NCBI GenBank assembly: GCA_003554735.1
Contig: PWHE01000006.1
Coordinates: forward strand, 1-48,081
Length of the DNA: 48,081 nt
From: Mollicutes bacterium
Lineage (GTDB): Bacteria > Bacillota_I > Bacilli_A > Izemoplasmatales > Izemoplasmataceae
Direction: 5' to 3'
Shown: positions 3,533 through 42,499 of the stretch, piece by piece
How the letters are laid out: every line of letters begins with the position of its first letter
Position numbering within the stretch: position 1 is the first letter of the stretch
Program-made: the position numbers and the translations under genes
Notes under the pieces: generated by a model
Database searches by the model: none
What the model saw: only the letters and a program-made list of their open reading frames with translations
Told to the model about the DNA's origin: nothing

Positions 3533-3562
3533 AGCGCAACCATCAGCGGTTGCGCTTTTTTT
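3533..3562 (+). terminator. tkt intrinsic terminator
   Basis: A 9-bp perfect stem (AGCGCAACC / GGTTGCGCT) with a six-base loop is followed by a run of seven T. Confidence 0.9.
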
Positions 3563-3596
3563 GATAAATATTCACCGAAAACGAACGGGAGGCCTC

Positions 3597-4022
3597 ATGA
3601 ACTATATACGCAAACACAGTGCCGGTGTTGAAGTGCACCGGGATGAATCGCTTCAGATCGTCAAACAGTCACTAAGGAAGCATCTTGATGCGCTCGTCAT
3701 TCCTACGCTCTCCACGGTCGAAGGCAGGAAAAAAGCCATAAGCGCCATTACAGGCATGAAGCGGAATGTCCCGGTTTATGTGAACGATGAATGTTGTCTG
3801 ATTCCCTTGATCGCAGAACGGGAATGGAACGCACTATTCATCAATTATTTCACTGTACTGGAAGTTGAAATGACCGCAGATAATCAATGCGACGTACGCT
3901 TTGCCGATGGGTCCGTGCTCACCGCACCGCTTTCTTCAAAAAAGGTCCTAAACCGATTGAACCGTTGCACTGAACTCTTGCAATGTCTGCAACAAAGAAA
4001 ACTTTCTGAAAACGTTTTTTAG
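3597..4022 (+). CDS. ComK-like transcription factor
   Basis: The 141-residue product resembles the core of ComK, the Bacillus competence transcription factor. The likeness is in the order of short blocks: a GRKKAI segment near residue 43-48 (GRKAGT in ComK), then a P-V-Y-V-N strand, then a L-I-P-L-I-(x4)-W-N block that parallels ComK's FLFPTLSS...C-GWI, then a strand-rich part with D-V-x-F-x-D-G-S ending at LNRLNRC. It is shorter than Bacillus subtilis ComK (192 residues), mostly at the C-terminus. ATG 3597 is chosen because GGGAGG at 3587-3592 precedes it; the longer frame from 3561 begins inside the upstream terminator. No other competence genes adjoin it. The family assignment is by eye and should be confirmed. 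Confidence 0.65.
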   Translation: MNYIRKHSAGVEVHRDESLQIVKQSLRKHLDALVIPTLSTVEGRKKAISAITGMKRNVPVYVNDECCLIPLIAEREWNALFINYFTVLEVEMTADNQCDVRFADGSVLTAPLSSKKVLNRLNRCTELLQCLQQRKLSENVF

Positions 4023-4024
4023 CA

Positions 4025-4040
4025 AAGAAAGCGCTTTACA
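4025..4040 (+). promoter_or_regulatory. cre-like palindrome upstream of pgk
   Basis: The segment holds the palindrome AAAGCGCTTT, core of CcpA cre sites, with 11 of 14 matches to the consensus. Its centre is about 57 bases before the predicted pgk transcription start, the spacing at which CcpA activates ackA in B. subtilis. An activating role is inferred. Confidence 0.45.
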
Positions 4041-4076: not shown

Positions 4077-4082
4077 TATAAT
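4077..4082 (+). promoter_or_regulatory. -10 box of the pgk operon promoter
   Basis: Perfect TATAAT 43 bases before the pgk start codon. No good -35 is visible 16-18 bp upstream, consistent with an activator-dependent promoter. Confidence 0.6.
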
Positions 4083-4124: not shown

Positions 4125-5318
4125 ATGGCTAAAAAAACGATTCGCGATTTGAATGTGACAGGAAAGACGGTTCTTGTACGTGTGGACTTCAACGTCCCCA
4201 TGAAAGACGGTGAGGTCAGCGATGACAACCGCATCCGTCAAGCACTGCCTACAATCAATTCACTGATCGAGAAAAACGGCAAGGTTGTGCTTTTTTCACA
4301 TCTGGGCAGAATCAAAGAAGAAGCCGACAAGGAAGGAAAATCATTGAAACCTGTGGCGGAGAAGCTCTCAGAACATCTCGGGCGCCCCGTCAAATTCGTA
4401 CCATATACCAGAGGTACCGAACTGGAGACAGCCATCGCATCGATGCAAGTCGGCGATGTGCTGATGTTTGAAAATACCCGTTTTGAGGACATCGACGGCA
4501 AAAAAGAAAGCAAAAACGATCCTGAACTCGGAAAATACTGGGCTTCGCTCGGAGACGTATTCGTCAATGACGCGTTTGGAACCGCGCACCGTGAGCATGC
4601 TTCAAATGTCGGCATCGCACGCAACATCGACGAAGTCGCAGCCGGGTTGCTTCTGGAGAAGGAGATCAAGTTCATCGGCGGTGCTGTTGAAAACCCAGAT
4701 CGACCATTTTATGCAATTCTTGGCGGTGCCAAAGTATCCGACAAGATCGGTGTCATTGAGAACCTTCTCGACAAGGCCGACAAAGTTCTTATCGGAGGCG
4801 GCATGAGCTACACGTTCATGAAAGCTCAAGGATATGAAATCGGAACCAGTCTTGTTGAAAACGACAAACTCGACCTCGCGAAACGTCTGCTTGAAAAAGG
4901 CAAGGACAAACTGGTGCTTCCGGTTGATTTCAAACTGACCAAAGAGTTCGCTGAAGACGCCGAATACCGTCTCGGTCGTTATGATGACTTCAAGCCGGAT
5001 GAAATGGGTCTGGATATCGGGGATGAGACACTCAAACGCTATCAGGACATGCTCAAAGAAGCGAAAACCGTCGTATGGAACGGTCCGGTCGGCGTGTTTG
5101 AATTCGAGAAGTACGCACAAGGAACCTTAGGCATTCTCGAAACACTTGCGTCGCTCAAAGATACTAGCACCATCCTTGGTGGCGGCGACTCAGCGGCTGC
5201 GGCCATTTCGCTCGGTTACGAAGATGCGATTACGCATATCTCCACCGGCGGTGGCGCATCGCTTGAATACCTCGAAGGCAAATCCCTTCCCGGCATTGAT
5301 GCCGTGGACGACAAGTAA
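4125..5318 (+). CDS. pgk: Phosphoglycerate kinase
   Basis: Glycolytic kinase transferring phosphate from 1,3-bisphosphoglycerate to ADP. The 397-residue product has the expected length and landmarks: RVDFNVP near residue 22, SHLGR near 59, the hinge and the nucleotide-binding GGGDSAAA near the C-terminus. AAAGGAG precedes ATG 4125. It is the first gene of a three-gene unit with an HPr-like gene (11-base gap) and tpiA. gap, commonly its partner in Bacillota, is not here. A cre-like palindrome sits upstream of its promoter. Confidence 0.97.
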
Positions 5319-5329
5319 GGTGAAATAAT

Positions 5330-5575
5330 ATGAAGAAGCAGATTGTCATCAACAGCACCATCGGACTGCATGCACAGCTGGCTGCCAAATTGGTGGATGT
5401 GACCAGCAATTATCATGCTGATGTCCGTATCGAGTACGCTGATCAGACAGTCGACGCCAAGAGCGTCCTCGGTCTGATGAGTCTTGCGGTGCCGAGCGGC
5501 GAGAACATCAACGTGATCGCCGAAGGCGAAGATGCAGACAAGGCCATTCAGGAAATCGAAAAAATACTGGAATAA
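5330..5575 (+). CDS. HPr-like phosphocarrier / Crh-like paralogue
   Basis: An 81-residue HPr-fold protein. HPr relays phosphate from PTS enzyme I to sugar permeases through an active-site histidine, and in Bacillota is also phosphorylated on a serine by HPr kinase to become the CcpA co-repressor. The serine context is intact (AKS-VLGLMSLA, Ser45). The histidine is present in GLHA (His14), but the usual GLHARPA loop reads GLHAQLA: the conserved Arg and Pro that support phosphotransfer are replaced by Gln and Leu. This suggests a mainly regulatory role, as with Bacillus Crh, which lost the histidine instead. Its place between pgk and tpiA ties it to glycolysis. Whether a standard HPr exists elsewhere in the genome cannot be seen. 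Confidence 0.85.
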   Translation: MKKQIVINSTIGLHAQLAAKLVDVTSNYHADVRIEYADQTVDAKSVLGLMSLAVPSGENINVIAEGEDADKAIQEIEKILE

Positions 5576-5588
5576 GGTGGAAATGACC

Positions 5589-6356
5589 ATGCGAAAACCA
5601 ATCATCGCAGGAAACTGGAAGATGCACAAGACAAGGGATGAAGCCCTGCAGTTCATCTATAACGTCAACTTGAAAGTGCCGAACAAAGAGTATGTCGAAT
5701 CTGTGGTTTGCGCGCAGGCTCCGGTTCTCAGAGACCTTGTCAAACGTCAAGGTGAAAATCTGCGGATCGGCGCACAGACCATGCACGAACAGACAGAAGG
5801 CGCATTTACAGGTGAAGTGTCGGCCGCCCTGCTTGAAGACCTCAATGTTGATTATGTCATCATCGGGCACAGCGAGCGTCGCGAATACTATAATGAGACC
5901 GACGAGGGTGTCAATAAGAAGATTCATCAGGCGTTCCGCTATGACCTTGTCCCGATCGCCTGTGTCGGCGAATCGCTTGAGATCCGTGAAAAAGGCGAGA
6001 CGGACGCTTTCGTCTCGAACCAGGTCAAAGCGGCCCTCAAAGGGCTTACGGACGACCAGGTCAAGAATCTTGTCATCGCCTATGAGCCGATCTGGGCCAT
6101 CGGCACCGGCAAGACAGCAACTCCAGAAGAAGCCAACAATGCCATAAAAAGCATTCGTTCGGTCATTACTGAAATGTATGATGCCGGTGTCAGTGACGAA
6201 ACCCGTATTCTTTACGGAGGCAGCGTGAAACCCGCAAACATCGACGATCTGCTCGCGCAAAGCGACATCGACGGTGCGCTTGTTGGTGGCGCCTCGTTGA
6301 ATGCGCAGGATTTCCTCACACTTGTGAACAGTGCACAAGCCAAAGTCGATCAATAA
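5589..6356 (+). CDS. tpiA: Triosephosphate isomerase
   Basis: Glycolytic isomerase interconverting dihydroxyacetone phosphate and glyceraldehyde-3-phosphate. The 255-residue TIM barrel carries the N-terminal GNWKMHK with the substrate lysine, the catalytic histidine in IIGHSERR, the catalytic glutamate in AYEPIWAIGTGK and the phosphate loop YGGSVKP. ATG 5589 is chosen over 5583 because AAGGTGG at 5574-5580 sits eight bases before it. It starts within 14 bases of the HPr-like stop and ends the operon at a terminator. Confidence 0.97.
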   Translation: MRKPIIAGNWKMHKTRDEALQFIYNVNLKVPNKEYVESVVCAQAPVLRDLVKRQGENLRIGAQTMHEQTEGAFTGEVSAALLEDLNVDYVIIGHSERREYYNETDEGVNKKIHQAFRYDLVPIACVGESLEIREKGETDAFVSNQVKAALKGLTDDQVKNLVIAYEPIWAIGTGKTATPEEANNAIKSIRSVITEMYDAGVSDETRILYGGSVKPANIDDLLAQSDIDGALVGGASLNAQDFLTLVNSAQAKVDQ

Positions 6357-6366
6357 TATGCGCTGA

Positions 6367-6396
6367 AGCGTCACATCCATATGTGGCGCTTTTTTT
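6367..6396 (+). terminator. pgk-tpiA operon terminator
   Basis: A 10-bp stem (AGCGTCACAT / ATGTGGCGCT, one G-T pair) with a four-base loop, followed by seven T. Confidence 0.9.
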
Positions 6397-26690: not shown

Positions 26691-26704
26691 GGAAAGCGTT
26701 TACA
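26691..26704 (+). promoter_or_regulatory. cre site at the glmS operon start
   Basis: GGAAAGCGTTTACA matches 13 of 14 positions of TGWAARCGYTWNCW. It begins at about +2 of the predicted transcript, a position where bound CcpA blocks transcription. Confidence 0.75.
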
Positions 26705-26719
26705 CTAAATAAGCCAATT

Positions 26720-26786
26720 CGAGGGTGCGACAATGATGATGACTTCCTTCAAGCGAGGAAAACGGTTACTGAGCGAGGGTCGACAA
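26720..26786 (+). repeat. pair of direct repeats in the glmS leader
   Basis: CGAGGGTGCGACAA (26720-26733) recurs as CGAGGGTCGACAA (26774-26786), one base shorter. A partial third copy of the CGAGG core occurs at about 26754. They may form RNA structure or bind protein. Confidence 0.5.
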
Positions 26787-40718: not shown

Positions 40719-40744
40719 TAAAAACGCTTTCATACAAAGCGTTT
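40719..40744 (+). promoter_or_regulatory. double cre-like operator with inverted repeat
   Basis: TAAAAACGCTTTCA (40719-40732) matches 13 of 14 cre positions. A second site lies immediately downstream, reading 12 of 14 on the minus strand. Together they make the perfect inverted repeat AAACGCTTT-CATAC-AAAGCGTTT (40722-40744). The pair begins at about +1, so a bound CcpA-like repressor would block the operon. Confidence 0.75.
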
Positions 40745-41852: not shown

Positions 41853-42499
41853 TGAAGCGAATAACGGTTCTGAGCGGTCACTACGGAAGCGGGAAAAGTG
41901 AGATCGCGGTGAACCTCGCAATCAATGAAAAGGTCGACATGCTTGTCGACCTTGACATTGTCAATCCCTATTTTCGTTCCAGGAGTGTCCGTGACCTGTT
42001 GGAATCCCACCAGGTGAGACTTGTCGAATCGACAATCGAGAACGCATCCGGAAGCGACCTTCCCTATGTGTCGGGCACCGCACTCAAACCGTTTTTGGAT
42101 CCTTCCATCCGCGCAATCTATGATTTGGCCGGAACGAAAGCGGGAGCGAAGCTGATGATGCAGTATACCGAACACATCAACCCCGATTCCATCGACTTTC
42201 TGCTGGTGATTAACATCTATCGGATGGAAACATCGGATGCGGCCAAGATCATCGCACTCATCGATGAGCTTGAAGGAAGCGCACAGCTGCGCATCAACGG
42301 ACTCATCAACAACTCAAACCTGATGAAAGAGACAACACAGGAACATATCGAAGAAGGTGAAAAGGTTTTGAAAACCGTGTCCGAAAAAACCGGCATTCCA
42401 ATCGCTTTCACGTTCATCGAGGAACATGTCAAAACCAACCACATTTTCGCAGGCCGGAACCGGACGCTGGTTCGCTATCTTGCGAAGCACTGGTTATAG
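41852..42499 (+). CDS. P-loop ATPase associated with 2-oxoacid oxidoreductase
   Basis: The 215-residue protein is a MinD/NubA-like P-loop NTPase: Walker A GHYGSGKSE (residues 9-17), switch DLDIVNPYFRSR near 33-44, and DLAGTKAG near 90 as Walker B region. It has no cysteine-rich cluster site. Its ATG shares a base with the dehydrogenase stop and nine bases separate it from the ferredoxin subunit, so it is embedded in the operon. A role in cofactor or Fe-S loading of the oxidoreductase is a guess from position; I know no tested function. Confidence 0.8.
   Translation: MKRITVLSGHYGSGKSEIAVNLAINEKVDMLVDLDIVNPYFRSRSVRDLLESHQVRLVESTIENASGSDLPYVSGTALKPFLDPSIRAIYDLAGTKAGAKLMMQYTEHINPDSIDFLLVINIYRMETSDAAKIIALIDELEGSAQLRINGLINNSNLMKETTQEHIEEGEKVLKTVSEKTGIPIAFTFIEEHVKTNHIFAGRNRTLVRYLAKHWL

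Follow-up and report, generated by a model that had tools for sequence, protein, structure and literature searches.

A conserved HPr paralogue with an altered active-site loop, encoded between pgk and tpiA in Acholeplasma, Anaeroplasma, Izemoplasma and their relatives

The HPr* gene and its operon

The window, meaning the whole 48,081-nucleotide stretch analysed, contains a glycolytic operon in which a small gene of the HPr family, here called HPr*, lies between pgk and tpiA (Table 1). It begins 11 nt downstream of the pgk stop codon and ends 13 nt ahead of the likely tpiA start. The predicted protein matches the Pfam PTS-HPr profile PF00381 over residues 2-81 with 90.1 bits (cut-off 23), which places it in the HPr family, and NCBIfam TIGR01003 with 85 bits. 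It scores 72.4 bits against the canonical-HPr equivalog NF010352, below the cut-off of 110, as do the GLHARPA-type HPrs of the same genome. Where canonical HPr reads H-A-R-P, the window protein reads HAQL. An AF2 model has the HPr fold with helix 1 beginning at His14 (pLDDT 82.7, pTM 0.73) and is too weak for claiming an altered active site.

The first-pass annotation had described a protein with GLHAQLA in place of GLHARPA that keeps the active-site His and Ser45 and is encoded between pgk and tpiA. The 81-residue ORF bears this out, and the synteny is conserved in relatives. Its statement that Arg and Pro are both lost is right, but the signature is the change from Pro to an aliphatic residue; position 17 is variable. 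A literature search, mainly of open-access papers, found no description of this paralogue.

Directly 5' of the pgk promoter lies a ComK-family gene (PF06338, 48.7 bits; window 3561-4022), and similar small genes occupy this place in many relatives. Between pgk and HPr*, many relatives carry a gene of about 182 codons for an XRE-HTH and cupin regulator (gap of about 570 nt; e.g., L047:3434-3982 and L067:3438-3986). It is absent from the window, and in those relatives it is a second regulator tied to the pgk-HPr*-tpiA operon.

Table 1. Features of the pgk-HPr*-tpiA operon in the window
Feature	Position	Strand	Evidence
cre-like site 1, TGAAAACGTTTTTT, upstream of pgk	4007..4020	+	sequence match; position conserved in relatives
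cre-like palindrome 2, AGAAAGCGCTTTACA, about 20 bp from site 1	4026..4040	+	sequence
-10-like hexamer TATAAT, presumed pgk promoter	4077..4082	+	sequence
pgk, phosphoglycerate kinase, first gene of the operon	4125..5318	+	ORF; gene order in relatives; named from sequence
HPr* gene, 81-aa HPr-family paralogue, ATG start	5330..5575	+	ORF; profile matches; orthologous group
Loop codons G-L-H-A-Q-L-A	5363..5383	+	sequence; conservation across orthologues
His codon of the loop (His14, canonical His15)	5369-5371	+	sequence
Gln codon replacing Arg	5375-5377	+	sequence
Leu codon replacing Pro	5378-5380	+	sequence
Ser45 codon (canonical Ser46, HPr kinase site), within VDAKSVLGLMSLAVP	5462..5464	+	Ser in 111/112 orthologues
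tpiA, triosephosphate isomerase, likely start 5589 (MRKPIIAG)	5589..6356	+	ORF; synteny; named from sequence
Terminator-like hairpin, operon end	6365..6392	+	6 hairpins in region vs 3.2 expected by chance

Orthologues, synteny and phylogeny

When HPr* was used as a query in 60 relatives, one set of places scored at least 71 bits, clearly set apart from the remaining HPrs, none of which exceeded 58 bits. Each of its 30 loci is flanked by pgk and tpiA, one to either side. Named genomes, when scanned, yielded 80 loci from Acholeplasma (laidlawii, oculi, granularum and equifetale), Anaeroplasma, Izemoplasma and related MAGs; on the stretches examined, pgk is upstream in 80/80 and tpiA downstream in 79/80. 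Families f18 and f7 retain HPr* in the same slot. At the HPr* locus of genome G145 pgk is not there, and tpiA is present together with upstream ABC-ATPase and ComK-like genes.

Maximum-likelihood analysis places HPr* in a single clade apart from 55 other HPrs, HPr and Crh of Bacillus subtilis among them (support 100/95), and the clade persists after removal of the columns H15-P18 (support 91/79). It excludes Crh, although the Crh branch is long and an alignment of 81 residues resolves little. Most of the other HPrs sampled have H-A-R-P intact. Orthologues are 52-90% identical, and throughout the group the altered loop and the pgk/tpiA neighbours are retained; this conservation marks HPr* as a genuine gene under selection, as opposed to drift. 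The conserved orthologous group likewise rules out a sequencing error or a one-off variant.

Residue conservation was counted over 112 distinct HPr* sequences in canonical HPr numbering. Ser46 is present in 111 of them, Lys45 in 107 and Ala54 in 111. His15 is kept in 104, the other 8 having Asp or Asn. Pro18 is found in none: the position holds Leu (101), Ile (6), Met (4) or Lys (1). Position 17 is occupied by S, Q, A, E, T, L, K, V, I or N, and by Arg in three sequences (from G145, G192 and G027). Thus position 18 is constrained to an aliphatic residue (Leu, Ile or Met in 111/112) and position 17 is free, which makes the Pro-to-aliphatic change the signature of HPr*. Across 30 divergent orthologues 17 columns are invariant. 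A departure at the kinase site is L254 of the single-contig genome G013, in which Ser46 is replaced by Asn despite the presence of HPr kinase. In published work, Arg17 is among the HPr residues that contact the enzyme I N-domain most, and Pro18 caps a helix; a Pro18-to-Ala change could affect helix capping (PMC8509676).

HPr* shares with HPr (PtsH) its fold, its family, Ser46 in a KS[IV] context and, in the window protein, His15. It differs in reading GLHAQLA instead of GLHARPA and DAKSxLGLMSLAVP instead of NLKSIMGVMSLGI, and in being encoded between pgk and tpiA with no adjoining ptsI. Like Crh of B. subtilis (1MO1, 1ZVV), it is a paralogue beside a canonical HPr that keeps Ser46, and the two have NAKS/DAKS and GLMSLAV in common. 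However, Crh has lost the His (to Gln) and kept Arg-Pro, whereas the window protein has kept the His and lost Arg-Pro. HPr* is unlikely to be a Crh orthologue: its His is kept, and the tree, in which Crh is a long branch, does not group the two. The f18/f7 orthologues lost their His (to Asp or Asn) separately from Crh. The HPr domains of NPr, DhaM and FPr also share the fold, but HPr* falls far below their curated cut-offs, and no dihydroxyacetone-kinase or fructose-EIIA fusion is found at its locus.

HPr-family and PTS genes of the window genome

The genome from which the window derives is 82% complete (1.29 Mb on 122 contigs). It encodes four HPr-family proteins: HPr* and one each on contigs C16, C38 and C29, the latter three all reading GLHARPA. 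The gene on C38 directly follows the end of a ptsI-like frame and that on C29 follows an EIIC-like frame. One HPr kinase and one LacI-family, CcpA-like regulator were also found, so the components that the first-pass annotation proposed to look for (a second, canonical HPr, HPr kinase and CcpA) are all in place. The three further HPrs make HPr* a paralogue and rule it out as the only HPr of this genome. The enzyme I N-terminal profile PF05524 has no match in the assembly. Absence of enzyme I was nevertheless rejected, as ptsH on C38 (L002) is immediately preceded by the C-terminal end of a ptsI-like frame; the N-terminal part of this ptsI is probably missing from the assembly.

A small gene just 5' of the canonical HPr gene (L001:1154-1498, L198:3235-3639) encodes a product with one likely membrane segment. 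The remainder of this protein resembles, by eye, a Cys-less EIIB domain, and it has no Pfam match above cut-off.

Co-occurrence with HPr kinase and enzyme I

Among 90 genomes of the same families, HPr kinase was detected in 74 of the 75 holders of HPr* and in 8 of the 15 genomes that lack it (Fisher p 6e-6, from raw counts of related and partly incomplete genomes, with no phylogeny correction). G016 has HPr* with HPr kinase undetected. All eight orthologues with Asp or Asn for His15 come from families f18 and f7, and HPr kinase is present in 8/8 of their genomes; a search of these genomes for enzyme I detected none in 7/8. The remaining one, G192, combines an HPr* with Asp for His (L202) and a full-length enzyme I, which was possibly regained. 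At least two His15 changes are needed on the HPr* tree. The f18/f7 members without HPr kinase, G086 and G064, have no HPr* match.

Enzyme I was detected in most holders of a His-bearing HPr*. The full-length protein was not found in G004, G007, G028, G057 and G058, several of which are incomplete MAGs, and in G182 its frame is split by a stop; all six genomes have a His-bearing HPr*. G145 keeps His15 and HPr kinase, with enzyme I undetected. G011 (family f1) has enzyme I and neither HPr kinase nor HPr*. Enzyme I and HPr* were not found in genus g19 of family f3 (G038, G040 and G044), in which HPr kinase is present. In two of these genomes the sole HPr reads GLQARPA (L154 in G040, L155 in G044), apparently a separate origin of a Crh-like protein.

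From this pattern of presence and absence, Ser46 and HPr kinase look like the core of the system, with His15 depending on enzyme I. HPr* has lost part of the transfer loop; in the species of the window it has kept both phosphorylation sites, one of which is lost in sister families mostly without detected donor enzyme. It therefore gives the impression of a regulator devoted to glycolysis, more than of a standard component of sugar transport.

The first-pass annotation had set its regulatory reading against an HPr that is alone beside a working PTS. The window genome, with its three other HPrs, does not have this arrangement, but it is partly realised in G270, G294 and G312 (96-97% complete), where no HPr-family match besides HPr* was found and enzyme I looks intact: at about 505 aa it keeps the GG..SHGAIL region and the PEP-binding motifs. 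That HPr* is the sole HPr found beside such an enzyme I suggests that it can accept phosphate from it. In a relative, G306, a second HPr reads GLCVKPA and lacks the His, leaving HPr* the only His-bearing acceptor seen. PTS_EIIC (PF02378, the one EIIC family searched) was found in 13/57 genomes, not in G270, G294 or G312, and was absent from most acholeplasma and anaeroplasma genomes tested. In families f22 and f16 (L177-L180, L183, L187, L188 and L190), whose genomes gave no PTS_EIIC matches, enzyme I is divergent and shortened to about 505 aa, with the catalytic His region retained.

CcpA and cre-like sites

Among structures, those of CcpA give the best alignment with the LacI-family protein of the window genome (L036). 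Its YDIGAVSMRVLTK falls opposite YDIGAVAMRLLTK of the B. subtilis CcpA chain in 3OQM, a complex with HPr, so the HPr-Ser-P contact motif is present. The Arg of this motif contacts Ser46-P in B. subtilis (named R304; PMC4591507). CcpA of G270, G294 and G312 keeps YDIGAVSMRLLTK, and the contact motif is kept in most others sampled. It is altered in family f2 (HPr and HPr kinase not above cut-off), G040/G044, G051 and G145; G012 keeps it with HPr and HPr kinase absent. G051 (family f3) and G145 have lost the Arg that contacts Ser46-P and retain HPr*. If the Arg contact is needed, CcpA is thus not the only conserved partner of HPr*, and it may not be a universal output. A. laidlawii is reported to possess HPr kinase and CcpA (PMC5138195).

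The first-pass annotation had suggested that HPr* could report glycolytic flux to CcpA, with a link to the cre sites of the window, and this is partly supported. A cre-like pair lies upstream of the pgk operon (Table 1), and such sites are conserved in relatives: 51 of 82 distinct pgk upstream regions contain one that deviates from the consensus at no more than one position. The expected number is about 2.6 when estimated from real 200-nt windows taken at these loci, and 0.8 from shuffles. Their centres mostly fall some 44, 55 or 63-64 nt ahead of the TATAAT, in steps of about one helical turn. In B. subtilis, a cre upstream of the -35 goes with activation in a helix-face-dependent manner (PMC3463425). 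Other cre-like sites of the window lie at 26691-26704, 26757-26770, 40719-40732 and 42397-42410 (7 matches vs 2.6 expected). They precede genes named by eye: a glutamate-mutase/methylaspartate/citrate-lyase-like cluster, a leucine-dehydrogenase-like gene and a 2-oxoacid oxidoreductase-like pair.

Proposed role of HPr* and alternatives

We propose, with a probability of about one half and on sequence evidence, that HPr* serves the glycolytic operon as a regulatory HPr whose core input is HPr kinase and whose second input is enzyme I. High glycolytic intermediates and ATP would lead HPr kinase to phosphorylate Ser46, and enzyme I, where present, would phosphorylate His15 and so oppose or tune the Ser46 mark. 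With Arg17 lost and Leu or Ile in place of Pro18, onward phosphotransfer to sugar permeases may be weakened, which would make HPr* a signal and not a carrier. HPr*-Ser-P would most likely act as a co-effector of CcpA where CcpA keeps the HPr contact motif, and CcpA may activate pgk-HPr*-tpiA from the upstream cre sites in a feed-forward loop. As the other likely output, HPr* would contact glycolytic enzymes directly. The full scheme is considerably more tentative: HPr* would be a signalling protein ancestral to the Acholeplasma, Izemoplasma and Anaeroplasma group, a non-carrier that receives one mark from enzyme I (PEP state) and an opposing one from HPr kinase (FBP/ATP state). Through CcpA it would feed forward to activate its own pgk-tpiA operon, and it would become Crh-like once enzyme I is lost.

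A competing possibility, to which we give a minor share, is that the main role is allosteric: HPr*, as Ser-P or His-P, would bind GAPDH or the operon's own Pgk or TpiA, with CcpA secondary. The strict pgk/tpiA synteny speaks for it, as does the retention of HPr* in G051 and G145 despite the altered CcpA, and there is precedent in B. subtilis HPr, which binds GapA; HPr-S46-P is reported to inhibit GapA by at most 35% (PMC12445079, citing Pompeo 2007). However, operon position may reflect co-regulation only, and the effect on GapA was modest in vitro and failed to account for the phenotype studied (PMC12445079). It is less probable still that HPr* is an ordinary phosphocarrier, with Arg17 and Pro18 dispensable, that passes enzyme I phosphate to EIIA or DhaM. 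Such a role would fit the prevalence of His15 and the genomes in which HPr* is the sole HPr found beside enzyme I, but it sits poorly with the scarcity of the EIIC family searched in acholeplasma and anaeroplasma genomes, with the retention of the gene in f18/f7 after His loss, with the published roles of Arg17 and Pro18 (PMC8509676) and with the three GLHARPA HPrs that coexist in the window genome. A decaying duplicate without distinct function might explain why two residues otherwise conserved in HPr are lost; the conservation of HPr* in essence refutes this idea, given the invariant columns, the kept Ser46 and pgk/tpiA slot, the near-uniform replacement of Pro18 and a monophyly that survives removal of the loop columns.

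If the regulatory reading is true, HPr* would be a variant on the known HPr/Crh theme whose specialisation runs opposite to that of Crh: it retains the His but has given up Arg-Pro in the transfer loop, and it is encoded within the glycolytic operon. The group offers natural experiments, including His15 loss where enzyme I was undetected, lack of the gene where HPr kinase is missing, and genomes with HPr* as the only HPr found. The idea is testable because Acholeplasma laidlawii, which is culturable, carries the gene (L095). It could help explain why enzyme I, HPr, HPr kinase and CcpA are retained in wall-less bacteria, many of them without detected main-family EIIC permeases.
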